A stretch of 49,696 bases of DNA. Origin: an uncultured Lachnospiraceae bacterium (GTDB taxonomy: Bacteria; Bacillota; Clostridia; Lachnospirales; Lachnospiraceae). Positions 1,113-20,990 of this stretch are shown in pieces. Position 1 is the stretch's first letter. Every line of letters starts with the position of its first letter. Location of the stretch: NCBI GenBank assembly GCA_947625775.1, contig CANQPM010000022.1, positions 1 through 49,696 of the forward strand, read 5' to 3'. Under the pieces are notes generated by a model, which did no database searches, was not told where the DNA came from, and worked only from the letters and a program-made list of their open reading frames with translations. Position numbers and translations under genes: made by a program.

Positions 1113-1712
1113 ATGTATCATATTGTTGCGATTGAACGCTCTTACGCCAGCGGCGGGAATGAGATTGGCGAAAAGCTGGCGAAGGCTCTTGGATATAAGC
1201 TGTTTGACAGGAATATCCTTATTGAGGCGGCGAAAAACCTTAATATTTCCCCGATTTATATTGAAAACCTTGAGGAAACAAGCTCGGGAGGCGTTATTTT
1301 TAATCTCTCCAAGGCATACAAGAGAAATGACACTGACGAGAACTCGCGTCCGCTTGCCGAAAAGCTCTTTGCGGAGGAGAGACACATTATAGAGCAGGCG
1401 GCTGACGAGGGCGGCTGCGTGATAGTGGGGCGTGCGGCAAGCTATATACTTCGGGACAGGGAGGACTGCCTGCGCGTCTTTGTGAATGCGGAGAAGGAGC
1501 ACAGAATACAGCGCGGCATACAGCATGAAAAGCTTGACCGCGCCACGGCTGAAAGCACGATGAAAAAGGTGGATAAGCGAAGGAAGGGTTTCTTTAATTC
1601 AGTCACGAACTGGGAGTGGGGCAGCCCCGATTATTTTGAAATATGCATCGACAGCGGAAAGCTCGGGATTGATTTGTCCGTAAAGCTTTTGGAAGCGGCT
1701 GTCAGGGGTTAG
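1113..1712 (+). CDS. Cytidylate kinase-like family protein
   Basis: The protein has 199 residues and belongs to the short cytidylate kinase-like P-loop family that is common in Clostridia. The N-terminus MYHIVAIERSYASGG carries the Ser-Gly-Gly phosphate-binding loop that these proteins have in place of a classical GKS/T Walker A, followed by the LAKALGYKLFDR segment typical of the family. A lid-like Arg/Lys-rich region follows (around residues 135-165). The ATG at 1113 is preceded by a good ribosome site (GGAAGGGAGAG, 1096-1106) and lies downstream of the predicted transcription start. True cytidylate kinases are somewhat longer (about 220 residues), and members of this subgroup are mostly uncharacterised, so CMP/dCMP phosphorylation is a family guess. 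The gene ends 7 bp before the MATE start, so the two are co-transcribed. Confidence 0.85.
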   Translation: MYHIVAIERSYASGGNEIGEKLAKALGYKLFDRNILIEAAKNLNISPIYIENLEETSSGGVIFNLSKAYKRNDTDENSRPLAEKLFAEERHIIEQAADEGGCVIVGRAASYILRDREDCLRVFVNAEKEHRIQRGIQHEKLDRATAESTMKKVDKRRKGFFNSVTNWEWGSPDYFEICIDSGKLGIDLSVKLLEAAVRG

Positions 1713-1719
1713 GCTGGAA

Positions 1720-3117
1720 ATGGGCTCATTAGTTAAATCTGACGGTAAAAACAATAATATCGAGGTTTTTGAAAGGCTGCCTGTCCCTAAAGCGGTCATG
1801 ACAATGGCTGTGCCTACTATTATAAGCCAGCTTATTGTGCTGATTTACAATATTGCCGATACGTTTTTCATAGGGCGCACGAATAATCCGCATATGGTGG
1901 CGGGCGCATCGCTTATACTGCCGCTGTTTAACATTACGCTTTCGCTGTCGGGGCTTGCGGGCATAGGGGGCGGTGCGCTTATATCGAGGCTGCTTGGTGA
2001 AAAGCGGGCTGACGAGGCAAGGAAGGTTTACAGTTTTTGCGTATATCTGGGAATTTTTTCGGCGGCGCTGTTTGCCGTGCTTGTTTTTGCGTTTATGCGT
2101 CCGCTGATGGGATTTCTCGGCGCGGGGGCTGATACATACGCTTATGCGAGCGGATATGCTTTTATGGTAATTGTCTGCGGCGGCGTGCCTACTGTGCTTT
2201 CAAACATACTTGCCAACCTGATTAGGAGTGTGGGCGAGTCCAAGAAGGCGGGCTTTGGCATTACTATGGGCGGGCTTATCAATATCGCGCTTGATCCGCT
2301 GTTTATGTTTGTCCTGCTGCCTGACGGCATGGAGATTTTCGGGGCGGGAATTGCGACTTGTCTTTCAAACTGTATTGCGTGCGGTTATTTTATTGTGACG
2401 CTGCTTAGAATGAAGGGCAATTCTGTATTAAGGCTTTGCGCTCCGTCAAATCTGCCTATGAAGAAAAATCTTCTTGCCGTGTTTTCCGTGGGCGTGCCTT
2501 CGGCGATTTCGACGCTGCTTTTTGATATGGATTATATCGTGATAGACCGTCTGATGTCGGAGTACAGTGATATTGCGCTTGCGGCTATCGGGATTGTGCT
2601 TAAGGCGGAGAGGCTGCCGCTTAATGTGGGGATTGGCATCTGCCAGGGCATGATGCCGATTATTGCGTATAATTATTCGGCGGGGAATTTTAAGCGTATG
2701 AATGAGACAAGGCTTTACTCGCTGAAGCTGGGGCTTGTCTGCGCGGCTGTGAGCATTGCCTTGTATCAGATTTTTGCGGGGCAGATTATGAATGTGTTTA
2801 TTGATGATGCGCAGACTGTGGCGCTTGGGACTGGTTTTTTGAGGGTAAGGGTGCTTGCCACTCCGCTTATGTTTTTGAGCTTTTTCCATGTGTATTTGTT
2901 TAATGGGTTTGGGAAGGGCGGATATGCGCTGTTTCTTGGCGTTACTAGGTGGCTTGGGTTTAATATTCCGATGTTGTTTCTGCTTAATTGGATTATTGGT
3001 ATGCAGGGGATTGTTTGGGCGCAGGTTTCGGCGGATATTTTGACGGTGGCTTTGTCGTTAGCTGTGTATTGGAATTTTCAGAGAAAGAGGTTTGTGGAGG
3101 GGGCGGAAGATATTTAA
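1720..3117 (+). CDS. MATE family multidrug efflux transporter
   Basis: The protein has 465 residues, which is usual for the family. It is very hydrophobic, with about twelve membrane segments in two similar halves. The family start PxxxMAVPTIISQLIVLIYN (about residues 24-44) and the following NIADTFFIG are hallmarks of the MatE domain, and the second half begins around residue 240 (VGVPSAISTLLFDMDY). MATE proteins export cationic drugs or metabolites in exchange for Na+ or H+; the substrate cannot be read from the sequence. The start at 1720 follows the kinase-like gene by 7 bp, so the two form one operon. No terminator of the usual kind follows; instead the structured repeat at 3156-3338 lies 38 bp downstream. 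Confidence 0.93.
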   Translation: MGSLVKSDGKNNNIEVFERLPVPKAVMTMAVPTIISQLIVLIYNIADTFFIGRTNNPHMVAGASLILPLFNITLSLSGLAGIGGGALISRLLGEKRADEARKVYSFCVYLGIFSAALFAVLVFAFMRPLMGFLGAGADTYAYASGYAFMVIVCGGVPTVLSNILANLIRSVGESKKAGFGITMGGLINIALDPLFMFVLLPDGMEIFGAGIATCLSNCIACGYFIVTLLRMKGNSVLRLCAPSNLPMKKNLLAVFSVGVPSAISTLLFDMDYIVIDRLMSEYSDIALAAIGIVLKAERLPLNVGIGICQGMMPIIAYNYSAGNFKRMNETRLYSLKLGLVCAAVSIALYQIFAGQIMNVFIDDAQTVALGTGFLRVRVLATPLMFLSFFHVYLFNGFGKGGYALFLGVTRWLGFNIPMLFLLNWIIGMQGIVWAQVSADILTVALSLAVYWNFQRKRFVEGAEDI

Positions 3118-3155
3118 AGATAGTGCGATGGGGGGAAGTTTTGCTTTCTCAGTCC

Positions 3156-3338
3156 GCCAGAGCATAAATATACACCCCATTCAGACCCGCTCCCGCTTAG
3201 TGGGAGGCGTAGCGGTACTAAGTTCAGCTACGCTGTAAAAGGAGCTACGCTTTTACGCGTGCTGCGCTCTTTGCAGCATGTTCACTAAGTACCGACGCCT
3301 CCCAAAGGTCTTCATGGGGTGTATATTTATGCTCTGGC
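3156..3338. repeat. Structured palindromic element, copy 1 (183 bp)
   Basis: The outermost 25 bp (3156-3180) are perfectly complementary to 3314-3338. An inner stem pairs TGGGAGGCGT (from about 3200) with ACGCCTCCCA (about 3294-3303), and there is a small hairpin with arms GTAAAAG/CTTTTAC around 3235-3256. A related element is at 17862-18028. The inner core (AGCGGTACTAAG, GGAGCTACGCTTTTA) is nearly identical in both copies, while the arms differ but stay paired. It fills most of the 313-bp gap between the MATE gene and the convergent gene at 3431-3838. No coding potential is evident. Confidence 0.8.
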
Positions 3339-3430
3339 TAGGTTGTTGGTTTTCCTTAGAAATCCTTTTGTTTTGATTTAAAAATGATGGTAATCTTATA
3401 TTGGTAACTGAAAATGCTTTCACATTTATT

Positions 3431-3838
3431 TTATTTTGAATTTGATGATGTTTTATTTATTTGTACATTTTGTTTTGTGTTGATGTATGTGGAATGGTGT
3501 TCTATTGCTTTTTGTGCTGCCTTTAATTTCTTTTCTTCGGCTGCTAATCGTCTTGTTTCAATGTCGTGTATGGTTTTCTCGTAGCGTTTCTTTAGTTCTT
3601 CTTTATGCACAATGTCGCCTTTCTGTTTCCAAGCTTCTACTACTGTTTCTATTTCTGGCTGCAGGCTGTTGTCTTCAACAGTTAGGAAACCGTAAAAGCA
3701 GCTTGGATAGGAGAATTTGCTTATTTTTCCCTTTTCGGTAAAATATATCTCCAGATGTTCTTCGTCTGCGCTGCGGATAATGCCGTTTCCTAAGGTTTTA
3801 TGCATAACTGTCTGATTTACTAACTTCTTTGAATCCAT
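3431..3838 (-). CDS. Hypothetical protein with small beta-barrel-like N-terminus and charged C-terminal helix
   Basis: The protein has 135 residues. The first 55 or so (HKTLGNGIIRSADEE, then FSYPSCFYGFL) follow a pattern seen in small beta-rich modules of the type 'H-x-x-x-G-x-G-x-I ... F-x-Y-P-x-x-F-x-x-F-L' that occur in several uncharacterised Clostridia proteins. Residues about 70-115 are rich in Glu, Lys, Arg and Ala and look like a long helix or coiled coil. The tail is polar. A ribosome site (GGGAGG) is correctly placed before the ATG at 3838. The gene stands alone and faces the MATE operon across the structured repeat. I do not recognise a function. Confidence 0.7.
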   Translation of the reverse strand: MDSKKLVNQTVMHKTLGNGIIRSADEEHLEIYFTEKGKISKFSYPSCFYGFLTVEDNSLQPEIETVVEAWKQKGDIVHKEELKKRYEKTIHDIETRRLAAEEKKLKAAQKAIEHHSTYINTKQNVQINKTSSNSK

Positions 3839-4011
3839 AGCATATTTGCCTCCCTTTTTACGCTAACTGAATACGTTTATATGGAATATTATAACTTAAA
3901 TAATTTGATTTCGTAAGAAAAATTTGGCTGTTTTTGTGCATTTCGTCACTTTGTCTACAATGATGCTATGCTTAGTTTGGTATTTTTGCACATATATTTT
4001 CGTGGCAGATT

Positions 4012-4060
4012 AAATGCCCCATTGCAAGCCCAATATTTCTTAGGCTGCAATGGGGCATTT
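4012..4060 (-). terminator. Terminator of the glycan operon
   Basis: The 15-bp arms AAATGCCCCATTGCA (4012-4026) and TGCAATGGGGCATTT (4046-4060) are perfect complements. The hairpin lies 13 bp past the GH53 stop codon. The A/T flanks would let it work from either side. Confidence 0.8.
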
Positions 4061-4072
4061 GTTGGCTGGATT

Positions 4073-6145
4073 TTAGTCTGAAATTCTGTTTAATGTAAAG
4101 TCGTCTACTGTTCCCCAGCTTTTGGGATTGCTTTTTATGCGCACGCCAATTGTTAGGGTGCCGTCGGTGACTTTTATTTCGGGGATTGTCGGATCTTGCC
4201 AGTTGGCGTAGCCTGACAGTGTAAATGGCGTTGTCTGTTCGTCTTCGCTTGTGATGGCGTAAAGCTCCATTTCCGCGTCTGGGGTGACGTCGCCTCCTTG
4301 GGCGTAGGCTATGAGCTGGTAAGTGCCCGCCTCTAAGCCTGTAAGTTCCTGCTCGATTGAAAATTCCATGGAAGCCTCTGACCAGAAGTGGAAGGCTATG
4401 TCGCCTGAGTGCGCGTCGTCTGTCTTTTTCTGAAAGTCTGTGGGGTTGTCTGCGCCTTCATAGGTTACTTTCCACATTGAGGTGTCTGTTTCCTCAAAGC
4501 TTGGATTTTTTATATGGTTTAGCATTTCCACCTTGACGTGGCAGGTGGTTTTTGTGCCGTCTTCGAGGGTGCCTTCTATCTCGTAGCTGCCGCTTGTGCC
4601 TGTGTCGATTGCGGCAAGCTGCGCTTCGTCCCATTTTACGGCGGCTTGTTCATTTGATGCGCGGTTGTTATATACTACGTCTATTTTTTCGGGTAGGATA
4701 AGCTCGCCGCCTACGTCCGCCGTGATGTAGGTGTCGGGTATATAGTCAATTGCAAGCGGGGCTGTTGAACCGTATTTTAGGTATTTGAATACGTTCAGCG
4801 ACGCGAGCGGGTGTCCTTCAAAATCAAACATTGCCTGATTGTCCCATGAGCTGCCGCCGTAATACAGTCCTGCGTCATTTGGGTCATAATCGGCGGAATA
4901 GCTGCTCGCCCAGCCGCTGCCGTATTTTTCCCATATGGGGGAGTTGTCCGCGTCTGCTTTGCCGACGGGTATCCATGCGCCCTCCCAGTAAAATACGCCC
5001 ATTACGCCTGCCTCATTTGCGGCGGCGCATATATCCCTAATCATTGTCGCCTGACTCTGCACGCTTGCGGCGTAGCCGTCAACCAGATCTCCTTCGCCTG
5101 ATACGCTGTTGCCCGAGCCGTCGCCGTCCTCGGAGGTGTAGCAATATGAGGTTTCCATTATGGCGACTTTTTTGCCGTAGGTGTCTTGTATGTTTTTTGC
5201 TACCTCCTGCATATTTTCCATAGTGCCGTGCCAGAACGGGTAATAGGACATGCCGAAAATATCGTAGTCAACGCCGTAGCTTAGCAGATTCAAGGCGGTT
5301 TTGTTTATATTGTCCGCCTGTTCTATGTTTGTGTAGTGAACGGCAATTTGAATGTCCTTGCCGTATTGCTGCGATACTTCGCGCACCGCCTTACTGCCTG
5401 CGCTTAAAAGTTTCATGACGCTTGGCATAAGCGTTTCGCCTGCCATGCCATTGTTGATTTCGTTGCCAATCTGCACCATTCCCACGTCTACGCCTGCGTC
5501 AAGCAGCTGAGTGAGGCTTTCTTTGGTATAGTCATAGAGCGCGTCGCATTTTTCATCTGCGCTCATTCCTTCCCATGCCTTCGGCGTAAACTGCTTTTTG
5601 GGATCCGCCCAGAAATCTGAATAGTGGAAGTCAATGCATACTTTCATTCCATACTCTGTCGCGCGCTTTCCAAGCTCTATTGCCGTTGACACATCATTGT
5701 TGCCGCCGCCGTAGCCGTTGCCGTCCGCGTCATACGGATCATTCCACACGCGCAGGCGTATGTAGTTTATGCCTGACTGGGCAAGCGTCATAAATATGTC
5801 CTGCTCCTCGCCATTGTAATTGTAATAGGTCACTCCGCTGTGCTCCTCTGCAAGCACGGAGGAAACGTCCATTCCTCTGATAAAATTGTCGGAGAGGCTG
5901 GGAATCGGCTCTACAAAGATGTCTGATTCCTCCGAAGCGTCTGGGAGAGGGAACATTGTGTTTAATTCACTTACTTCTTCTGTCTGTTCAGCCGCCTGTT
6001 GCTGTGTGTCTGATGTCTGTGGCTGCTCCTGTGTCTGTGCGTCTACAGCAGGGCTGCTGTCCGCCGCGCCACAGCCTTGTATTAAAGATACGCAAATAGC
6101 GGATGCGGCAAATAACGCTGTCAGTTTCCTGTGCGATTTTTTCAT
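4073..6145 (-). CDS. Secreted lipoprotein arabinogalactan endo-beta-1,4-galactanase (GH53) with Ig-like and carbohydrate-binding C-terminus
   Basis: The protein has 690 residues. The N-terminal Lys/Arg, hydrophobic segment and LIQGC lipobox (Cys25) predict lipid anchoring to the outer face of the membrane; a low-complexity Gln/Thr/Glu linker follows to about residue 75. The GH53 barrel (about 85-460) shows the family signatures IRGMDVSS, RLRVWNDP and DFHYSDFWADP, the acid/base Glu229 (VQIGNEI) and the nucleophile Glu331 (IMETSY). An Ig-like segment (about 470-540) and a CenC-like binding domain starting NPSFEETDTSMW (about 547-690) complete it. GH53 enzymes cut beta-1,4-galactan of type I arabinogalactan and pectin side chains. 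The ATG at 6145 was chosen over the upstream one because GAGGAGG precedes it. It is the last gene of an operon with the GH1/PMI fusion (76 bp upstream) and the CE2 esterase. Confidence 0.93.
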   Translation of the reverse strand: MKKSHRKLTALFAASAICVSLIQGCGAADSSPAVDAQTQEQPQTSDTQQQAAEQTEEVSELNTMFPLPDASEESDIFVEPIPSLSDNFIRGMDVSSVLAEEHSGVTYYNYNGEEQDIFMTLAQSGINYIRLRVWNDPYDADGNGYGGGNNDVSTAIELGKRATEYGMKVCIDFHYSDFWADPKKQFTPKAWEGMSADEKCDALYDYTKESLTQLLDAGVDVGMVQIGNEINNGMAGETLMPSVMKLLSAGSKAVREVSQQYGKDIQIAVHYTNIEQADNINKTALNLLSYGVDYDIFGMSYYPFWHGTMENMQEVAKNIQDTYGKKVAIMETSYCYTSEDGDGSGNSVSGEGDLVDGYAASVQSQATMIRDICAAANEAGVMGVFYWEGAWIPVGKADADNSPIWEKYGSGWASSYSADYDPNDAGLYYGGSSWDNQAMFDFEGHPLASLNVFKYLKYGSTAPLAIDYIPDTYITADVGGELILPEKIDVVYNNRASNEQAAVKWDEAQLAAIDTGTSGSYEIEGTLEDGTKTTCHVKVEMLNHIKNPSFEETDTSMWKVTYEGADNPTDFQKKTDDAHSGDIAFHFWSEASMEFSIEQELTGLEAGTYQLIAYAQGGDVTPDAEMELYAITSEDEQTTPFTLSGYANWQDPTIPEIKVTDGTLTIGVRIKSNPKSWGTVDDFTLNRISD

Positions 6146-6221: not shown

Positions 6222-8558
6222 TTACACATTCACGCTCGATGCCATTATCTTCAGCCCGCCCGTAAACTCTGCCGTGCCGAATCCATTTGGGAGAATAAAA
6301 TGGTCACCCTTTTTAATATACTGCCCATTTATTAATCCGTCACCTTCTATAACACTCATGATGAGGAATGGGTACTCCTGCTCTATTTTTGCAGAACCGC
6401 TGACCTCAAGCATCCACAGCTTATAATATTCGCAGGTAAACAAAAGACTGAGCTTGTTTTTCTCTATCTTTTTTACAAGCTCACCAGCCTCTATCGTACA
6501 CTCGTCAAGGCTGACGGCAGGTATCTTTACGACATCAAGGCATTTGTCAAGATGGAGCTCCCTCGGCTTTCCGTCTGTCAGGCGGTCGTAGTCATAAAAG
6601 CGGTAGGTTATGTCGGAATTTTGCTGTGTCTCGAGTATCTGTATGCCGCCGTTTATCGTGTGAACAGTGCCTGGTGAAATCTGTATAAAATCGCCCTTTT
6701 TGACGGTTATGCGTCGAAGCAGCCTGTCCCACTGCTTATTCTCAATCATGCTTTCCAGCTCCGCCTTGTCTTTTGCATTATGCCCTACTACTATCTGCGC
6801 GCCTTCCTCCGCGTCAAGTATATACCAGCTCTCTGTTTTTCCAAGCGAGCCGTTTTCATTTTTAAAGGCATATTCATTGTCAGGGTGTACCTGAACGCTC
6901 AAATCGGTTTTCGTGTCCAGTATCTTTACGAGAAGCGGGAAAATGCTGCCTAGTAAATTTCCCGAATTTCCAAAAAGCTCTGGCATTTGTGTCCAAAGCT
7001 CGCTTAAGCTCCTGCCTGCAAAGCGCCCTTCTTTTATGGTACAGTCGCCATGCTGGTGAGCCGCTACAGCCCAGCACTCGCCTGTAGTCTGCGTGGGTAT
7101 GTCATATCCCCATTCCGTGCCGAGCCTGTTCCCGCCCCAGAGCATTGACTTAAATACAGGGTTTGTAAACAATATTTCGCCTTTTGCATTTGTGCTGTTT
7201 ATGCTGAGTGTCCTGCCGTTTGTCTCCATGACCTCTTTATACCAATAAGCGGAATCCTTGGCAATTCTTTTCTGTGTGGCAAAATCAACATACACCATGC
7301 CAAAACGGTCGCTGTAGCCCTTCTCCCACTCGAAGTTGTCGAGAAACGACCAGTGGAAATATCCCCTTATATCAACGCCCTCGTCATTTGCGCGCTGCAG
7401 ACTTGAAATATATTTATCAAGGTAATCAATCCTGTTGTAATCGTGTACGCGCCCGTCCTCTGAAACCCAGTCGTTTGCCGCCATTCCGTTTTCCGTGATG
7501 TAAATAGGCATCTTGTAGCGCTCATAGAGAAACTTCACTCCCCAATACATCGCCTGCGGTTTTACCAGCCAGTTCATTGCTGTCTTTGGAGAGCCTTTGG
7601 GATTTTCAACGTGTTCGGGCTTGCCGTCCTTTCCGCATTTTATGGGGTGTCCATTGTAAAGATTCTGTCCCATAAAATCTATCGGCTGATGGATAAGCTC
7701 CATGTCCTCATCTGTAATCTCGGGGAGGTAATCCTTGAATCTTTCAAGCCCTTCCTCGGGATATCTGCCAAGAAATACAGGATCTGAAAACCAGCTTGTG
7801 TTCCATGTCCAGTTGTCTATCGGCTGACCGCAGCCAAAGTATAAGCTCTTTGCCGCCTCTATATCCTCTTTGCTGTCCGTATAAGGATAAGGCACATCGC
7901 CTGTCGGCGCAAAGCCTATCTTTATCGGGCGCTTAGCGTATTTTCTAAGCTGCTTTACGGCTGTCCCGTGCGCGCGCAGGACATTGTGCGCTACCCTGAA
8001 AACGGCGCTCGGCGCAAGCTTTAGCCCTGGGGCATGTCCTCCCGTGAGATAGCCAAGTCCGATAAAACACTGCGGCTCATTGAAGGTGACAATATACTCA
8101 GACAAATCAGTGAAGTTTTCCGCCACTACCCGCGCGTACTCGCCAAAATAGCCTATCAAATCCTCATTCAGCCAGCCGCCCTTGTCCTGCAGCGCCTGCG
8201 GCAGCTCCCAGTGGTACATTGTTATGTATGGAGTTATGCCGTTTTTTATCATTTCCTGCATCATGTCGCGGTAGAGCGCTATCGCCTTTTCATTTACCCT
8301 GCCCGTGCCCGTCGGCATAATGCGCGCCCAGCTTATCGAAAAACGGTACGCTTTTATGCCAAGCAGACGCATCATCGCAAAGTCTTCCTTATATCTGTGA
8401 ATGTGGTCGCACGCGACGCTCCCGTCATGTCTCTCGTACACTCCGCCGCTTTTTGCAAACTCGTCCCATATGCATGCGCCCGCGCCGTCGTCCGCGTCAT
8501 GCCCTTCTATTTGATAGGCGCTCGTCGCCACGCCCCAGACAAAATTATCCTTAAACAT
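6222..8558 (-). CDS. Fusion of a GH1 beta-glycosidase with a class I mannose-6-phosphate isomerase
   Basis: One uninterrupted 778-residue frame encodes two complete enzymes. Residues 1-450 are a GH1 glycosidase: acid/base Glu161 (TFNEP), nucleophile Glu356 (ITENG), and DNFEW near 407-411, the aglycone/glycone pattern of enzymes acting on non-phosphorylated beta-glucosides, galactosides or mannosides. After a linker of about 12 residues, residues 462-778 match ManA/PMI of the Bacillus type: TNPVFKSMLWGG start, TGECWAVAAH, metal ligands Gln556/His558 (QVHPDNEYAF), Glu576 (KTESWY) and His633 (SPGTVHTING), and the catalytic-region Arg in TYRFYDYDR. There is no signal peptide, so both act in the cytoplasm. 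PMI interconverts mannose-6-phosphate and fructose-6-phosphate. The operon partners, an esterase and a galactanase, suggest use of acetylated plant mannan or galactan; the true GH1 substrate is unknown. Confidence 0.9.
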   Translation of the reverse strand: MFKDNFVWGVATSAYQIEGHDADDGAGACIWDEFAKSGGVYERHDGSVACDHIHRYKEDFAMMRLLGIKAYRFSISWARIMPTGTGRVNEKAIALYRDMMQEMIKNGITPYITMYHWELPQALQDKGGWLNEDLIGYFGEYARVVAENFTDLSEYIVTFNEPQCFIGLGYLTGGHAPGLKLAPSAVFRVAHNVLRAHGTAVKQLRKYAKRPIKIGFAPTGDVPYPYTDSKEDIEAAKSLYFGCGQPIDNWTWNTSWFSDPVFLGRYPEEGLERFKDYLPEITDEDMELIHQPIDFMGQNLYNGHPIKCGKDGKPEHVENPKGSPKTAMNWLVKPQAMYWGVKFLYERYKMPIYITENGMAANDWVSEDGRVHDYNRIDYLDKYISSLQRANDEGVDIRGYFHWSFLDNFEWEKGYSDRFGMVYVDFATQKRIAKDSAYWYKEVMETNGRTLSINSTNAKGEILFTNPVFKSMLWGGNRLGTEWGYDIPTQTTGECWAVAAHQHGDCTIKEGRFAGRSLSELWTQMPELFGNSGNLLGSIFPLLVKILDTKTDLSVQVHPDNEYAFKNENGSLGKTESWYILDAEEGAQIVVGHNAKDKAELESMIENKQWDRLLRRITVKKGDFIQISPGTVHTINGGIQILETQQNSDITYRFYDYDRLTDGKPRELHLDKCLDVVKIPAVSLDECTIEAGELVKKIEKNKLSLLFTCEYYKLWMLEVSGSAKIEQEYPFLIMSVIEGDGLINGQYIKKGDHFILPNGFGTAEFTGGLKIMASSVNV

Positions 8559-14890: not shown

Positions 14891-16204
14891 TTATTTCTCT
14901 GATACTGCCTTGAAAGCCTCGTCTAAGTCCTCGATTATGTCGTCAATATGCTCTGTGCCGATTGAAAGCCTTATGGTGTTTGGCTTGATGCCCTGCTGCG
15001 CTTTTTCCTCGTCGCTAAGCTCTGCGTGGGTGGTGGTGTAGGGGTGGATTACAAGCGACTTTACATCGGCTACGTTTGCAAGCAGCGAGAACAGCTCGAG
15101 GTTATCTATGAAATCCTTCGCCTTCTGCTCGCCGCCTTTTATCTCAAAGGTAAAGATTGTGCCGCCGCCGTTGGGGAAGTATTTTTTATAGAGCCTTTGC
15201 TGCTCGGGATCTGTTGTTACGGCGGGGTGGTTTACTTTTTCCACAAGAGGGTGCTTTGAGAGGTAGTCAACTACCTTAAGCGCGTTTTCAACGTGGCGCT
15301 CTACCCTGAGTGATAGTGTTTCCAAGCCCTGCAGGAATATAAACGCATGGAAGGGAGAGAGCGTCGCCCCTGTGTCACGCAGGAGTATTGCGCGTATTCT
15401 AGTGACGAATGCCGCCGCGCCTGCCGCATCGCAGAAGCTTATTCCGTGGTAACTTGGGTTAGGCTCTGTGAGCTGCGGGAATTTGCCGCTTGCTTTCCAG
15501 TCAAATTTGCCGCTGTCCACTATTACGCCGCCGATTGTCGTGCCGTGGCCGCCTATGAATTTTGTTGCTGAGTGCACTACTATGTCTGCGCCGTACTCGA
15601 TTGGCCTTACGAGATAGGGCGTTGCAAAGGTGCTGTCTACGACAAGCGGGATGTTGTGTCTGTGGGCGATTTTGGCGATTTCCTCTATGTCGGACACCTC
15701 TGAGTTGGGATTGCCGAGCGTTTCTATATATAATGCCTTTGTGTTGTCCTGAATCGCGTTTTCAAAATTGCTTACATCCAGCGGATCTACAAATGTCGTG
15801 TTTACGCCATAGTCTACAAGCGTATGGGCGAGGAGGTTGTATGTACCGCCGTAAATGTTTTTTGCGGCTACGATATGTCCGCCGTTCTGCGCGAGGTTTT
15901 GTATGGTGTAGGTGACTGCCGCCGCGCCAGACGCTACCGCAAGCGCCGCTATGCCGCCCTCGAGCGCTGCCATTCTCTGCTCGAATATGTCCTCTGTGGG
16001 ATTTGTGAGTCTGCCGTATATGTTGCCTGCGTCAGAAAGGTTGAAGCGTGCTTCTGCGTGGGCTGAGTTTTTGAATACAAATGACGAGGTCTGGTAAATG
16101 GGCACTGCCCTTGCGTCTGTCACTGGATCGGGGCTTTCCTGTCCTACGTGGAGCTGTAGTGTCTCAAATTTTAGGTTTCTTTCATTATAGGTTTTTTTGC
16201 TCAT
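14891..16204 (-). CDS. metY: O-acetylhomoserine sulfhydrylase (homocysteine synthase)
   Basis: The protein has 437 residues, the usual length for the MetY/Met17 branch of the Cys/Met metabolism PLP enzymes. The start FETLQLHVGQ, the phosphate-binding region ASGAAAV, and the PLP lysine Lys215 in VHSATKFIGGHG are clear, as is the long LTEPNPSYHG insertion that separates MetY from cystathionine gamma-synthase. It makes homocysteine (or cysteine-like products) directly from O-acetylhomoserine and sulfide in the cytoplasm. The ATG at 16204 has GGAG at the right spacing. It is monocistronic and is driven by a promoter at 16333-16361 that is overlapped by a motif shared with the iscR promoter, so regulation by a sulfur/Fe-S-responsive Rrf2 protein is inferred. 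Confidence 0.93.
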   Translation of the reverse strand: MSKKTYNERNLKFETLQLHVGQESPDPVTDARAVPIYQTSSFVFKNSAHAEARFNLSDAGNIYGRLTNPTEDIFEQRMAALEGGIAALAVASGAAAVTYTIQNLAQNGGHIVAAKNIYGGTYNLLAHTLVDYGVNTTFVDPLDVSNFENAIQDNTKALYIETLGNPNSEVSDIEEIAKIAHRHNIPLVVDSTFATPYLVRPIEYGADIVVHSATKFIGGHGTTIGGVIVDSGKFDWKASGKFPQLTEPNPSYHGISFCDAAGAAAFVTRIRAILLRDTGATLSPFHAFIFLQGLETLSLRVERHVENALKVVDYLSKHPLVEKVNHPAVTTDPEQQRLYKKYFPNGGGTIFTFEIKGGEQKAKDFIDNLELFSLLANVADVKSLVIHPYTTTHAELSDEEKAQQGIKPNTIRLSIGTEHIDDIIEDLDEAFKAVSEK

Positions 16205-16256
16205 AATTTTCTCCGTTTCCGTCTGAATAATCAATAATCAGGCTGATATAAAATCT

Positions 16257-16285
16257 GCTTTCACAGCATAAAGCTGTTTGAAAGC
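16257..16285 (-). other. Hairpin in the metY leader
   Basis: GCTTTCACAGC (16257-16267) can pair with GCTGT-TT-GAAAGC (16273-16285), leaving a two-base bulge. It is not followed by a T-run. I see no SAM riboswitch or T-box hallmarks in the leader. Confidence 0.4.
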
Positions 16286-16332
16286 TTTAATAAATTTAAT
16301 GTGTTTTAAATTTCGACGTCTTAATTTGTTAT

Positions 16333-16365
16333 ATCATAACCCTTTATTCCTAGTATGTCAATAGG
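16333..16365 (-). promoter_or_regulatory. metY promoter with overlapping Rrf2-type operator
   Basis: On the minus strand TTGACA (16356-16361) and TATGAT (16333-16338) are 17 bp apart. The plus-strand motif ATTCCTA-G-TATGTCAATAGG at 16346-16365 covers the -35 box. It differs at one base from the motif at 23564-23583 that overlaps the iscR promoter in the same position and orientation. Confidence 0.75.
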
Positions 16366-16376
16366 TTTTGTAAAAA

Positions 16377-17129
16377 TTATTTTCCGCGGATGTCGCTGGT
16401 CTGCTGAGCCTCGGTAATATAGCGATACAAAAGGTATTCGTCGAGGAATATGACGAGCGCCAGCGAGGCGGCGATTGCTATGATAATCAGCGCTTTTATA
16501 TGCATATGTAAGAGCGGTATGCGGGTTATTATTATCAGTGTAAAACATGTAAACGCGAGCGTGACTTTGAAGGCGGCGAGCTGGGCTGTGCGTTGGATTT
16601 CGTAAAAATGGCTGTCCATGATTGCTCCTGATATTTTTGTCTCATAAAAGTAGCCAAAAAAGCCTAAGAGGACAAATGCGATAAAAATATCGCTGCGCCA
16701 GAAGCCGAAGAGTCCTAGGAAGCCCAAGAAGCCGAGATATCCGCGCTTTGGGTTTACTGTACGGACAATATTTTCCTGCCGTATGGCTTTGTTTTCGCCG
16801 ATTATTGCGTCTGCTACTGAGATGAATAAAATCACTAAGTATATGATTGTCAGGGCTGTGGAGAGGAGCATTGGCAGGTCTCTTGGGGTAAATTTGTATT
16901 CGGAGAGTTTCATCGGCTCTAAAAGGCGGGAATCGTTGAATACAGATGCATAGTATGATGAGACTATCAGCATCATGATGCATATCACGCCGAGCAGAAT
17001 CAGCACTTTTTTTCTTGATTTGCAGCTGTCGGGCTCTGTTTGCTGGTTTGTATTGTTAAAGTCCTGCTGATGTGGGGGGTTTTGCGGCTGTGGTGTTGTC
17101 TGGTGAAATTCCTGGTTGTTTTTCTGCAT
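16377..17129 (-). CDS. DUF3796-like membrane protein
   Basis: The protein has 250 residues. A Gln/Pro/Asn-rich cytoplasmic N-terminus (1-40) is followed by membrane segments near 43-63, 88-108, 143-162, 185-205 and 210-230. In the middle, RGYLGFLGFLGLFGFWRSD (about 129-147) is the repeated Leu-Gly-Phe stretch characteristic of DUF3796 proteins. No function is known. A ribosome site GGAGG precedes the ATG at 17129. It lies 24 bp after the zinc-ribbon gene and is co-transcribed with it. Confidence 0.75.
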   Translation of the reverse strand: MQKNNQEFHQTTPQPQNPPHQQDFNNTNQQTEPDSCKSRKKVLILLGVICIMMLIVSSYYASVFNDSRLLEPMKLSEYKFTPRDLPMLLSTALTIIYLVILFISVADAIIGENKAIRQENIVRTVNPKRGYLGFLGFLGLFGFWRSDIFIAFVLLGFFGYFYETKISGAIMDSHFYEIQRTAQLAAFKVTLAFTCFTLIIITRIPLLHMHIKALIIIAIAASLALVIFLDEYLLYRYITEAQQTSDIRGK

Positions 17130-17153
17130 AAGTTTTCCTCCGTTTCTTATCCT

Positions 17154-17693
17154 CTATATCTTTAATAGTTTTCCCTGCAGCATATGCCCGCAGTATTTGC
17201 AGGTTATATTATGAAAAATCGGCGGTTCGTTTTTCCTTACTGAATCGTAGTCTGTTCCTATGAAATATTCGCTTTCTACGTCGATGAGCGGTATGAGTGT
17301 TTCGCCGTTGCCGCCCATGCAGTCGCGGCATATCCAGTTTTGCGTATATTTTACGGGGTAGAAGCTTTCTCCTGTTTTCAAGCACAGCATTGGCATCCAG
17401 GAAAGCTTATTGGACTTTAGGATTCTGTTATGGCTTAGGGCTGGATAGAGTCTGACTGTGGTTATTTTTTGTGATATTTCTGTGCAGGCGCGTAGGAAAT
17501 TATGTTTGTTTGGGGTGAGATTTATGGTGTGCATTAGCGCGCCGTTGCTGTCTAGGGCGTTAAGCAGGGCTTTGCAGCGTTCTGTGGAAATGACATATAT
17601 GTCAGTTTTGCCCATGGTTATCTTTTTTAGGGTGTATTTGTCTATGTTGTCTGTATTATATATATTATCAGTGTGGTATTTGCTGTTTTTCAT
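17154..17693 (-). CDS. Hypothetical protein with two CxxC pairs (zinc-ribbon-like)
   Basis: The protein has 179 residues and no membrane segment. It has a short Asn/Asp/Tyr-rich N-terminus, a middle part without recognisable motifs, and two cysteine pairs, CRDC (about residue 123-126) and CKYC (about 168-171), which could together bind one zinc ion. The start at 17693 has AAGGG upstream; an internal ATG 26 codons later is a weaker alternative. A good promoter lies at 17771-17799. It is first in a two-gene unit with the DUF3796-like protein, so it may act with that membrane protein. Family not recognised. Confidence 0.65.
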   Translation of the reverse strand: MKNSKYHTDNIYNTDNIDKYTLKKITMGKTDIYVISTERCKALLNALDSNGALMHTINLTPNKHNFLRACTEISQKITTVRLYPALSHNRILKSNKLSWMPMLCLKTGESFYPVKYTQNWICRDCMGGNGETLIPLIDVESEYFIGTDYDSVRKNEPPIFHNITCKYCGHMLQGKLLKI

Positions 17694-17770
17694 TTTTAAT
17701 GCCCTTGTGTTGGTGATGGTAGGTTGTTGTTGCTTTTTTGTGGAAGTATGGAAAATGTTATATATTTTTT

Positions 17771-17799
17771 ATTATAATATGGTAATTTGTATAAAACAA
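17771..17799 (-). promoter_or_regulatory. Promoter of the zinc-ribbon/DUF3796 unit
   Basis: On the minus strand TTGTTT (17794-17799) and TATAAT (17771-17776) are 17 bp apart, about 75 bp upstream of the start codon. Confidence 0.6.
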
Positions 17800-17808
17800 G
17801 CGAATATG

Positions 17809-17836
17809 TTGGAATAATTTTTAAATGTGGTATAAT
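17809..17836 (+). promoter_or_regulatory. Promoter-like sequence reading into the structured element
   Basis: TTGGAA (17809-17814) and TATAAT (17831-17836) are 16 bp apart. The predicted start, about 17843, is some 20 bp before the left arm of the element at 17862, so the element could be made as its own RNA. Confidence 0.5.
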
Positions 17837-17861
17837 GTTGAGGGTGAATTGGTGTCAGGTC

Positions 17862-18028
17862 GCCCGAACAGTGATATATATCCCCCTGCGGACATCGCTT
17901 GCGCTCAGTGTGAAGCGTAGCGGTACTAAGCTCAACGGCGCTGTAAAAGGAGCTACGCTTTTACAGCTTGTTTCGCTAAGTGCCGACGCTTCACAAGGTC
18001 CTTTGGGGATATATATCACTGTTCGGGC
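17862..18028. repeat. Structured palindromic element, copy 2 (167 bp)
   Basis: The outer 24 bp (17862-17885) pair perfectly with 18005-18028. An inner stem pairs TGTGAAGCGT (from 17909) with ACGCTTCACA (17984-17993), and a central hairpin has 10-bp arms GCTGTAAAAG/CTTTTACAGC. The core matches copy 1 at 3156-3338, both copies are followed by TAGG, and the arms differ by paired substitutions. Confidence 0.8.
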
Positions 18029-18174
18029 TAGGGTTTTGGCAGTTTCGTAGATATGATGATTGTTTGGATTGGGGTGACGGTTGCTAAACTTTAACCAGTA
18101 ATGTAGAATTTTGGTAGAATGGACATAATAAGCGGCGTATTGCGTCACGGCTTGTTGTGTTGAAGCGTGTCGTG

Positions 18175-18230
18175 TTTTGTATATTTTGCTTAAATTCGTA
18201 CAATCTAAAGCACATTTTGTAATTGCCTAA
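18175..18230. repeat. Short dispersed repeat, copy 1
   Basis: About 56 bp align with 33461-33513 in the same orientation, sharing TTTTGTATATT at the left, AGCACATT in the middle and GCCTA at the right. It lies about 100 bp upstream of the pyridoxal kinase gene. Confidence 0.6.
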
Positions 18231-18328
18231 ACAGTGTATAATGAACAGATATATAATGCAAGTGTGAAAGTATTTGTAGTTATCAAGGTAAGACTACAGC
18301 TATTTTCATATTCAAAGGAGATTGCTTT

Positions 18329-19177
18329 ATGAAAAGAGTTGCGTTGATTAATGATTTGTCGGGGTTGGGGCGGTGTTCGCTTACGGCGGCTATTCCTGTG
18401 ATTTCTGCTATGGGGGTGGAGGCTTGTCCGCTTCCTACGGCTGTTTTGTCGGCTCAGACGGGGTTTGAGAGTTATTTTTTTGATGATTACACTGATAAGA
18501 TGGGGTTGTTTACAGATGAATGGGCGAAAATGGGGGTGTGTTTTGACGGGATACAGTCGGGGTTTCTTGCCAATCCTGCGCAGATAGAGAAGGTGATGAG
18601 TTTTCTTGATGTGTTTCAGAAAAGCGGCACGCTTTATCTGGCTGATCCTGTGCTTGGCGACAGTGGAGTTAAGATGAAAGCTTTCAGCGGCGGGCTGCTT
18701 GACGGTGTGCGCGAGCTTGTGCGGCGTTCAAGCGTCTGTACTCCAAATCTTACGGAGTTGTGTCTGCTTGCGGGAGATAATTATGACACTATTGTCAGTT
18801 TTGCTGATGGCGATGACTATAATAAGCGCATCTGCGAGGTGGCGCGCAGGCTTATAAGCTCTGCTTATGGAAATCAGACTGTGATTGTCACGGGAATTAT
18901 ACATCGGAAGGACAGTGCGGCGTATGTGGGTAATCTTGCAGTGAGTGGGAGCGAGAGTTTCTATTTGGAAACACCTTATACTGGCAAGAGCTTTTCGGGT
19001 ACGGGGGATTTGTTTGCGGCTGTGATTTGCGGGGCGATGGTTAAGGGGCTTTCTGTTGATTGCGCGATGAAAAAGGCGGCTGAATTTCTGCAGCCTGCCA
19101 TTGAGGAGGCATCTGCCGAAAATATTGACCGCAATTATGGTATCTGCTTTGAAAAATATCTGCGCCTGCTTATGTAA
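18329..19177 (+). CDS. pdxY: Pyridoxal/pyridoxamine kinase
   Basis: The protein has 282 residues, the usual length for PdxY-type ribokinase-fold kinases. MKRVALINDLSGLGRCSL at the N-terminus, LADPVLGDSG (about 113-122), TPNLTEL (about 148-154) and the catalytic anion-hole motif FSGTGDLFAA (about 229-238, Asp as base) are all typical. It phosphorylates pyridoxal or pyridoxamine to salvage vitamin B6, the cofactor used by three other enzymes in this window (MetY, IscS, MalY). AAAGGAG precedes the ATG. It is monocistronic, with a clear terminator downstream, and is the only plus-strand gene between 3118 and the right end. Confidence 0.92.
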   Translation: MKRVALINDLSGLGRCSLTAAIPVISAMGVEACPLPTAVLSAQTGFESYFFDDYTDKMGLFTDEWAKMGVCFDGIQSGFLANPAQIEKVMSFLDVFQKSGTLYLADPVLGDSGVKMKAFSGGLLDGVRELVRRSSVCTPNLTELCLLAGDNYDTIVSFADGDDYNKRICEVARRLISSAYGNQTVIVTGIIHRKDSAAYVGNLAVSGSESFYLETPYTGKSFSGTGDLFAAVICGAMVKGLSVDCAMKKAAEFLQPAIEEASAENIDRNYGICFEKYLRLLM

Positions 19178-19188
19178 TGTCGCAGGCG

Positions 19189-19221
19189 CAGGGCAGCTTA
19201 GCTGAGCTGCTGCCCTGTTTT
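19189..19221 (+). terminator. Terminator of the pyridoxal kinase gene
   Basis: CAGGGCAGC (19189-19197) pairs with GCTGCCCTG (19209-19217), followed by TTTT. A perfect 16-bp palindrome (GATAATGC/GCATTATC, 19237-19252) lies just beyond, at the end of the convergent GH53 gene. Confidence 0.8.
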
Positions 19222-19250
19222 AGCGTCGCATATTCAGATAATGCGCATTA

Positions 19251-20990
19251 TCACTGATTGACTGGCATAAGGCTTGGCTGCTTTATCATGCCGTAAATAG
19301 CGGGGGCGTCTATCATTACAGCTACTGTAACCGCGCTGTCATTTTCAAGCGTAAACTCTGCGCTGTACTTTGTCCAGCCGTCTGCTGACGGGAAGATTTC
19401 CTTTGAGCCCAGCGTCTCGCCCTGCTCATTCTTTACATAGATTCCCGCCTTTACATTTGTAGTGTTATCCCCTTGATAATAAACGGAAAAGCTGTATGCG
19501 CCTTTTGAAAGCTTAGCCGTCTTCTGGCTTACCGACAGCTTAAAATTGCTCTCGGCTTTAAAATATATGTAATTTACGGGAATAATGGGCGGTATTTCAC
19601 TTACCTCCTGACGCATTTCAAGGTTCAGGCTGCCACTCTCTGCCTCCTGCTCGATATTCCAATCCTCGGGAAGCCCTTTGAAAATGTTTTCAAGGTCTGC
19701 ATTGGCAAGAAGGTTTCTTTGGCTGTTTTTTTCTACAAAGCTTGCTTTTAATTCTATCATTTCTCCGCTTTCGGACAGCTTTCCATTTATGACACAAGTG
19801 TCACTTTTATTCATCGCAGGCGCTGGCTCCCATATAACCTCCTCGCGTTCAAGCCTTCCGTCATATTTGAGTGTTCTGATTGTTTTTGGCAGATATTCTG
19901 ATATGTCGCTGCCTTTGGGAATTTCAATGTCTGAGGGCGCGTATATTTTAGCCGTCCTGTTTACGTCTATGCCCATAATGTCCGTATTAAACGCCTTTAA
20001 CCCAAGCGTAGGCATGCCTTCGCTGTCCACGACTCCCATACAGTAACCCCAGCCGTCCTCGTTTTCATCACTTGGTCTTATGAACGGCTCCCAGTAAAAA
20101 ACACCCATTCCCATACCGTTACTTACGTGAGCGGCTATGCTCATTATCAGCTCCAAAACCTGTTTTTGCGCCGCGCCGCCTGCGGGGAAGCCTGAAATTC
20201 TTTCCTGCTCCTCGCCAAACATGTTATCCCTGCTCCTGCGGTATGCGTGCGCCATTTCTGCCACTATCAGCGGTCTTTTGTAACGCTCGGCGAGATTTTC
20301 CATTGAGTTTTTCAAGTCGTTGAAGGTGCCGTGCCAGAACGGATAGTATGACAGGCCGATTATGTCAAAGTCCGTCACGCCGTGCGCGAGCGCGTTGTCA
20401 AACCATTCTCTGAAATAATAGAACCTGCCGCCTTGGTCCAGGTGGAGCATTATCTTTGTGTCCCGCCCCTTCTGCGTCTCCCTGACTGCGCGTATTCCCG
20501 CGTTCAAAAGCCCCGCAAGCCCGTCCCAGTTTGAGGTAAGCCCGTCGGGCCAGAGCATGCCGCACCTTATCTCATTGCCAACCTGAACTATATCGGGATA
20601 TGTGCCGTTTTCATCAAGCGCCGTGAGAACTGATTTTGTATAATCATATACCGCGTCCTCCAGCGCCTTTCCCGTAAGGTCTTTCCATGCGAGCGGCTTA
20701 TTCTGCTGCCCTGGATCCGCCCAGTAATCAGAGTAATGAAAATCAAGCAAAAATCCTAAATCACGCGACTTTATCTCTTTCGCCATCTGCTTTGTGTACT
20801 CAAGATTACAATATCCGCCCGACTCCTTTACGTTTTCGGGATTGTTCCATATGCGGAGCCTAGCGTAATTAAAGCCCTGCGCCTTGCCGAAGTCAAGGAT
20901 ATCGACCTCATTGCCGTCAAAATCATAATATTTGTGTCCTCTGTCCATCATCTCCATATGTGATGAGATGTCCATGCCCTTAATAAACAT
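19251..20990 (-). CDS. GH53 endo-beta-1,4-galactanase without signal peptide, with Ig-like and binding-type C-terminal domains
   Basis: The protein has 579 residues. The GH53 barrel spans about 1-340: FIKGMDISS, RLRIWNNP, DFHYSDYWADPGQQ, acid/base Glu140 (VQVGNEI), LSYYPFWHGT, and nucleophile Glu245 (IVAEMAHAY). An Ig-like segment follows (about 350-420) and then a beta-rich module (about 430-579) resembling carbohydrate-binding modules. Unlike its paralogue at 4073-6145 it begins right at the catalytic domain, and a stop codon (TAA) lies one codon upstream of the ATG, so no secretion signal can be hidden by a wrong start. It would therefore be cytoplasmic or exported by an unknown route. The ribosome site is poor. 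It stands alone between the pyridoxal kinase terminator and the isc terminator. Confidence 0.9.
   Translation of the reverse strand: MFIKGMDISSHMEMMDRGHKYYDFDGNEVDILDFGKAQGFNYARLRIWNNPENVKESGGYCNLEYTKQMAKEIKSRDLGFLLDFHYSDYWADPGQQNKPLAWKDLTGKALEDAVYDYTKSVLTALDENGTYPDIVQVGNEIRCGMLWPDGLTSNWDGLAGLLNAGIRAVRETQKGRDTKIMLHLDQGGRFYYFREWFDNALAHGVTDFDIIGLSYYPFWHGTFNDLKNSMENLAERYKRPLIVAEMAHAYRRSRDNMFGEEQERISGFPAGGAAQKQVLELIMSIAAHVSNGMGMGVFYWEPFIRPSDENEDGWGYCMGVVDSEGMPTLGLKAFNTDIMGIDVNRTAKIYAPSDIEIPKGSDISEYLPKTIRTLKYDGRLEREEVIWEPAPAMNKSDTCVINGKLSESGEMIELKASFVEKNSQRNLLANADLENIFKGLPEDWNIEQEAESGSLNLEMRQEVSEIPPIIPVNYIYFKAESNFKLSVSQKTAKLSKGAYSFSVYYQGDNTTNVKAGIYVKNEQGETLGSKEIFPSADGWTKYSAEFTLENDSAVTVAVMIDAPAIYGMIKQPSLMPVNQ

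Follow-up and report, generated by a model that had tools for sequence, protein, structure and literature searches.

The window (the whole stretch of 49,696 nucleotides that was analysed) was found to carry six tRNAs, its only Rfam matches, and two copies of a hairpin-forming element, both on the + strand. Copy 1 (3156–3338, 183 bp) lay downstream of a MatE gene and was matched by a covariance model at G000:C22:3178-3317 (E 9e-24), G000 being the window's own genome (3.75 Mb, 42 contigs); copy 2 (17862–18028, 167 bp), likewise matched by a covariance model, lay directly past a promoter-like TTGGAA-16-TATAAT. The outer arms of copy 1 (3156–3180 and 3314–3338, 25 bp each) and of copy 2 (17862–17885 and 18005–18028, 24 bp each) were perfect complements within each copy and differed at many positions between the copies, and the inner stem read GGGAGGC/GCCTCCC in copy 1 and GTGAAGC/GCTTCAC in copy 2. 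The original prediction had described both structured blocks, the perfect yet different arms and the two inner stems, and was accurate on each point. Folded as ssDNA, copy 1 gave a z-score of -10.7 and copy 2 of -9.9 against dinucleotide shuffles, and 0 of 200 shuffles folded equally well. Elsewhere in the window, positions 6222–8558 encode a predicted fusion protein with a glycosyl hydrolase family 1 domain and a type I phosphomannose isomerase domain (catalytic and cupin parts).

Copy 1 was preceded by a left flank (3142–3155) that is weak here relative to the consensus from 96 copies, TTTGGCAAGAGGTC, and followed by a conserved right flank (3339–3350, TAGGTTGTTGGT); both flanks of copy 2 were conserved (17849–17861, TTGGTGTCAGGTC, and 18029–18039, TAGGGTTTTGG). 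Within copy 1, the left internal loop (3188–3200) carried a conserved CGCTYNCGCT mini-hairpin, near-invariant across 27 diverse copies and with a paired change in its 2-bp stem once (1/27 copies per alignment). The left side of the inner stem (3201–3210) paired with 3295–3304, and the core stem CGGTACTAAG (3213–3222) paired with 3285–3294 apart from an A-A mismatch at 3220/3287. In its right half copy 1 contained an 18-nt insertion (3257–3274) that was absent from 25 of 27 aligned copies; it was found too in L002 and L236 (the G020 orthologue of L005), the carriers being L001, L002 and L236.

Across the family the order of parts, from the outside inward, was the left flank, outer arms of 23–25 bp, two pyrimidine mismatches, a 4-bp GACC/GGTC stem, the one-sided loop CGCTYNCGCTNAG with its tiny hairpin, the inner stem, an AG bulge and the stem CGGTACTAAG/CTAAGTACCG with the A-A mismatch; the apex was formed by a variable hairpin, and the right flank had the consensus TAGGTTTTTGGT. 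The core was thus marked by the one-sided CGCTYNCGCT loop, the AG bulge and the A-A mismatch in CTAAG/CTAAG, and the bulge and the mismatch were kept across genera. A much longer left-loop hairpin was present in L117–L120; L116 had a remnant of one. For this part, fusion of some copies with a separate mobile hairpin (AACGCCTTAG...) was considered and rejected: the four occurrences of that sequence in G000 (up to 3 mismatches) all lay at element copies, and it was therefore read as an extended loop domain. Most copies of a fourth genome (G052) belonged to a separate subfamily that has a shorter core and flanks peculiar to it. Arms of different copies were seemingly unrelated around a common core in G098, partly alike in G374 and recognisably alike in G317. 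At L335 and L346 (G374 and G098) complementarity extended outward, by eye, as imperfect pairing past the best arms, as though the arms had formerly been longer or derived from the target. The conserved flanks were also considered as a pre-existing joined target, which was rejected, since a left+right matrix found 138 sites in the real sequence as against 140 after shuffling.

BLAST of G000 with copy 1 returned 52 matches, some of which were one palindromic copy counted on both strands. Two covariance models were used as well: R1 was built from 25 cores and the broader R2 from 27 diverse cores. A model search of this genome and its relatives, which the original prediction had proposed, brought up many further copies; G000 has about 41 in all, two of its 43 listed rows not being copies (in L005 a match that fell within a gene, in L115 the second strand of a counted copy). 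Within the genus, R1 matched 6 of 38 genomes (G000 among them), with G002 and G004 matched weakly (one or two matches each). Of 392 genomes sampled across the order, 68 had at least one copy by R2 (32 of 172 genera), all of them in the window's own family, the Lachnospiraceae, and a class-level sample gave 10 positives among 393 genomes, again exclusively in that family; at most nine candidates per genome were scored in these order and class searches, and fuller counts were made for 19 positive genomes. In these, copy number ranged from 1 to 75 and was at least 10 in 18 of the 19; at E 1e-6 (R2) there were about 41 places in G000, 41 and 50 in the sister species G017 and G020, 22 in G052, 75 in G173 and 41 in G374. 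A core 18-mer occurred in 74 stretches, and when 18 of these from other records were searched with the model, 17 matched (29 matches, E up to 1). The two copies noticed in the window thus belong to a large, dispersed hairpin family of gut bacteria. Carriage by phages or plasmids was rejected: one G000 copy had no match among 72,556 plasmid records, one rumen-type copy had none among 50,697 phage records, and the exact 18-mer was absent from viral contigs.

No Rfam match up to E 1 was obtained for five G000 loci, and eight loci from other genomes gave a single chance-level match (E 0.98) that lay outside the element. No Rfam match overlapped any tested copy, in line with the original prediction, which had not recognised the element as a known RNA class. 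No paper whose title or abstract describes the element was found in the open-access literature, and the hairpin family is apparently undescribed so far.

Base pairing was evaluated in an alignment of 27 G000 copies (63 pairs, 1698 pair cells). Standard pairs occupied 98.4% of the cells, and 33–44% when the partner was slid by 1–3 columns. Double-sided changes affected 37 of the 63 pairs (204 cells), compared with shuffled means of 18.7 pairs and 50.4 cells, and 0 of 500 shuffles reached as high, which bears out the description of a dispersed element that is structured and whose base changes come in pairs. Non-covarying arms in additional copies had been named beforehand as evidence to the contrary; most copies did covary, and the exceptions were L005 (left arm unpaired) and L117 (about five mismatches) in G000 and the rumen-type copies. 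An arm finder gave 6 of the 41 G000 copies a low score. By eye, L118, L119 and the first L120 copy had good arms split by the extended loop, L117 and L005 were the exceptions just named, the left arm of L005 having been rewritten, and the second L120 copy was truncated.

Selection on an RNA is expected to leave wobbles on the RNA's own strand. In the outer helix of the 27 aligned copies there were 130 double-change cells, 2 wobbles (G-U) and 9 unpaired cells. In three close genomes, 79 of 102 copies had arms that were perfect over 23 bp (78 distinct left arms), and the 25 mismatches in 2346 pairs comprised 8 G-T, 12 A-C and 5 other. Perfect arms over 23 bp were found in 9 of 19 G052 copies (mismatches 3 G-T, 3 A-C) and in 2 of 23 rumen-type copies (11 G-T, 20 A-C, leaning if anything to the minus strand). 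In the core, G-U pairs were to some extent tolerated on the + strand (10 cells in columns 49/172 and 5 in columns 79/156), which fits a folded + strand, RNA or ssDNA.

Direct signs of arm copying were seen as well. In L159 (G020) the right half of the inner hairpin was the complement of the left half, whereas its orthologue L019 (G000) kept the bulged form and was nearly identical in the remainder; L015 and one L119 copy were likely further cases, and the orthologues L012 and L038 differed by a paired indel of one base pair. The rewritten inner hairpins, seeming template-switch events, lie at L015 1548–1607, L159 2345–2410 and L119 2431–2555. Homogenisation of inverted-repeat arms by template switching is described in PMC8604942, and PMC7202029 also concerns quasipalindrome correction by that route. 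The likeness is that one arm is copied onto the other; the difference is that quasipalindrome correction is a mutational process and not an element, and here it acts on a conserved element. Because G-T was not in excess over A-C, and because a whole inner arm was copied (L159 vs L019), the covariation is partly DNA-level arm copying and not RNA selection. The original prediction had taken covariation to argue for selection on base pairing rather than for simple copying, and on this point it was not supported as worded. Arm copying would erase the bulge and the A-A mismatch; their conservation suggests selection on the core.

Orthologous copies differed at 49 of 1611 core positions (3.0%), 31 of 821 arm-region positions (3.8%) and 554 of 2627 positions of the 100-bp flanks (21%), with 3, 10 and 346 gap columns, respectively. 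The set consisted of 14 comparisons of 16 tried (2 skipped), several of which reuse one G000 locus; the limits between arm and core are approximate, and the set is biased to recognisable copies, since decayed copies would escape recognition. The arms are specific to their locus and remain so, and their low divergence is therefore not accounted for by conversion between paralogues. These values bear on the possibility that the copies are inert relics of an old expansion whose arms are kept perfect by template switching alone. Such homogenisation of inverted-repeat arms is known from PMC8604942, copying was observed here in L159, and no enzyme was found for the element (Y1 transposase was tried). 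The A-A mismatch and AG bulge, which copying could erase, were nevertheless conserved across genera, and the contrast between 3% in the core and 21% in the flanks already disfavours relics, unless the flanks are unusually mutable; we consider this explanation highly improbable.

All 41 G000 copies were intergenic according to a codon-usage gene caller that misses small genes. Their flanking genes were oriented same/same in 18 cases and opposite/opposite in 14 (one of these a duplicate row), and few sites were convergent or divergent. In other genera, where 44 loci were tried and long open frames only were considered, 38 of 39 placed copies were intergenic (same/same 18, opposite/opposite 10). 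The upstream gene lay on the same strand in 24 of these and on the opposite strand in 13. Where it lay on the same strand, 22 of 24 copies began about 5 to 110 bp past the stop codon (distances from the core, approximate). Neighbouring copies less than 1.2 kb apart were convergent in 14 cases, tandem in 6 and divergent in 0, with orthologous pairs possibly double-counted. Convergent pairs about 200–950 bp apart were noted in several genera (L166, L167, L179, L197, L204, L217, L222, L320, L331 and L141).

The position behind stop codons is what might be expected of a folded RNA that serves the cell, either as a 3'-UTR element or as a small RNA, and whose long closing stem would be free to vary, as variable closing stems occur in many RNA families. 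This is the main rival of a mobile hairpin. It would account for an elaborate core with covarying helices, for the G-U pairs on the + strand of the core, for the core and arm regions being 5 to 7 times better conserved than the flanks at orthologous loci, and for the promoter-like sequence before copy 2. The orientation to genes, however, was not fixed, the outer arms in the close genomes were nearly free of wobbles and had no strand preference, and the rumen-type mismatches pointed, if anything, to the other strand. By eye, no common promoter was recognised within 60 bases upstream of 30 copies. No terminator-like site (a G+C-rich hairpin followed by a T run) was found at copy 1, and copy 2 contained a single one, its apical hairpin followed by TTGTTT, compared with 0.5 expected; on the same grounds neither copy was taken for an intrinsic terminator. 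We hold a cellular RNA to be rather unlikely.

With regard to mobility, many element positions were common to three species, so that recent movement is not shown. Presence differed between sister species: no copy was found in G020 at the place orthologous to that of copy 1, nor in G020 or G017 at the place orthologous to that of copy 2. The original prediction had suggested looking for empty sites in close relatives; no clean one was found there, and where a sister species was without the element, the surroundings were altered too. L210 compared with L222 looks like a near-precise loss that left about 13 arm bases; the place is about 2313–2327 in L210 as against 4286–4436 in L222, and roughly ten left-arm and three right-arm bases remain. 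An offset scan over 102 copies revealed no target-site duplication; its best six-base z was about 5, at distant, uninterpretable offsets, and the conserved flanks and the want of a clean empty site weaken this test. Y1 transposase (PF01797) was present in 40 of 68 element-positive genomes, compared with 237 of 392 overall, was not found in G020, and was represented in G000 by fragments only. Mobilisation by Y1/RAYT was therefore rejected, there being no association with the presence of the element. The G000 fragments (IS200-like; C20 9815–10076, L065 and L068) included one with a stop codon, and the model found no intact copy. The element is patchy among species, looks mobile and seems to be kept in place by selection.

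Four known systems were compared, of which quasipalindrome correction was dealt with above and TwoAYGGAY RNA is taken up below. MITEs are short, non-coding and intergenic and have terminal inverted repeats. The element is likewise short, non-coding and intergenic with inverted ends; it differs in that its ends vary between copies, no target duplication was seen and no partner transposase was found. Inverted repeats common to the copies and an autonomous partner, as in a MITE, were thus not seen, one transposase family (Y1) having been tried. REP and REPIN elements, which according to PMC3116915 have RAYT transposases, resemble the element as described there in being short palindromic intergenic repeats in tens of copies that form hairpins, are patchy and are non-autonomous. 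A dispersed intergenic palindrome in many copies was indeed found here, and the element differs by its long copy-specific arms, its elaborate conserved core and the lack of association with a RAYT (Y1) gene in the counts given above. We class it with the dispersed palindromic elements, as a new variant of REP-like type.

In the three close genomes the flanks on both sides were rich in G + T on the element's + strand, and GC skew was +0.55 in the left 60 bp (positive in 97% of 95 copies) and +0.36 on the right (84%), fading outward. For 24 G000 copies in 20-kb stretches, mean GC skew at 110–300 bp was +0.31 on the left and +0.32 on the right, fell to +0.07 at 2–3 kb on the left and was about zero past 3 kb; T-A skew behaved alike. 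In control intergenic DNA, T-A skew had the opposite sign relative to GC skew. Islands of about 1–4 kb with an excess of G and T on one strand, independent of gene direction, were noted in the window at 1400–4200 (surrounding copy 1) and 16000–19600 (surrounding copy 2), both on the + strand, and in L263–L282. Among 32 islands called in about 440 kb of DNA mostly chosen around copies, 13 had the element, each in the matching orientation (13/13), and 19 were without any copy. No islands were present around 18 rumen-type copies or in G374, G317 and G098 (20 copies), and those in G052 were weak (14 copies).

Two simple accounts of the skew were rejected. A pure insertion preference is at odds with 74 control points that were matched for local skew and lacked the T-A plateau. 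A direct effect of present occupancy is at odds with the occupied allele being the more skewed in just 9 of 19 comparisons; these use sister alleles taken as empty, of which L253 actually holds an element cut by the contig end and L251 (the sister of L027) was counted empty although element cores are listed there.

A further possibility is that the element is a chromosomal DNA-processing site, a hairpin that would be cut or would start one-strand synthesis, with arm perfection and G+T skew as by-products. Several observations are consistent with such a site: in the three close genomes GC and T-A skew culminate at the element, with one and the same strand favoured to its left and right; in G000 the skew decays within 3 kb; the matched control points lack the T-A plateau; the 13 islands agree in orientation; and close neighbours are convergent or tandem but never divergent. 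The islands without a copy, the genomes and rumen-type copies without islands, the weak islands of G052 and the even outcome of the occupancy comparisons (one supposedly empty allele, L253, in fact being occupied) speak against it, and we regard a DNA-processing site as improbable. The islands centred on the element suggest a DNA process that is local and strand-specific.

One island without the element was found to hold another long hairpin (L270 16024–16247; G000 C1, about 222.0–222.3 kb), which was the TwoAYGGAY RNA (RF01731) on the opposite strand. TwoAYGGAY was listed in 2010 as a probable RNA with no known role, according to PMC2864571, and a CsrA-binding role has been proposed for this orphan family (PMC4333381). 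Relatives of this hairpin occurred in each of the four genomes (14, 18, 22 and 4 matches over both strands). By pattern match, GAGGAC was present on the left of 8 and TGGnTnTTGG on the right of 9 of the 14 loci fetched, and GC skew near the hairpin was positive on both sides at 10 of 10 loci (four were left out, two from G052 and two without a clear copy). Like the element, TwoAYGGAY thus sits inside long complementary arms, with similar flanks and with G+T islands in the same orientation; unlike it, it has an unrelated core, and the RNA is annotated on the strand opposite to the one that bears these flanks. The tested copies of the element did not match the RF01731 covariance model, which did match the second hairpin family.

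It is conceivable, and in our judgement unlikely but worth stating, that the element and TwoAYGGAY belong together in a single, so far undescribed class of DNA hairpins that share their ends (approximately GGAC ahead of the stem and TRGnTnTTGG behind it). At each copy one strand would time and again be exposed, cut or synthesised anew, which would lead to arm copying and, in one lineage, to a strand-specific mutation bias 1–2 kb on each side. If this is true, TwoAYGGAY would act as DNA instead of, or in addition to, acting as an RNA, and the shared ends would tie an Rfam orphan to a wider class.

The family is multi-copy, intergenic and patchy, includes at least one lineage-specific subfamily and holds a conserved core in varying yet complementary arms. 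For these features we favour, tentatively and at a little under even chances, a REP-like dispersed palindrome, i.e. a short non-autonomous mobile hairpin of Lachnospiraceae whose active form is a folded strand and which selection retains. The single strand, folded as ssDNA or as a transcript, would be recognised and spread by an enzyme supplied in trans, and the core (CGCTYNCGCT loop, AG bulge and A-A mismatch) would be the recognised part; the arms would stay complementary partly because one arm templates the other during DNA synthesis, and the intergenic copies would then be retained. Retention is suggested by the element being far better conserved than its flanks, and this strong conservation could equally reflect a host function; the route of spreading, the enzyme and any host benefit are what we infer.

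For the interpretation of similar repeats, strong covariation, which is normally taken as the mark of a functional RNA, can come partly from arm-to-arm DNA copying, and the wobble count (G-T vs A-C) helps to separate RNA selection from DNA copying. In common gut bacteria, the family can distort analyses of repeats, RNAs and assemblies.
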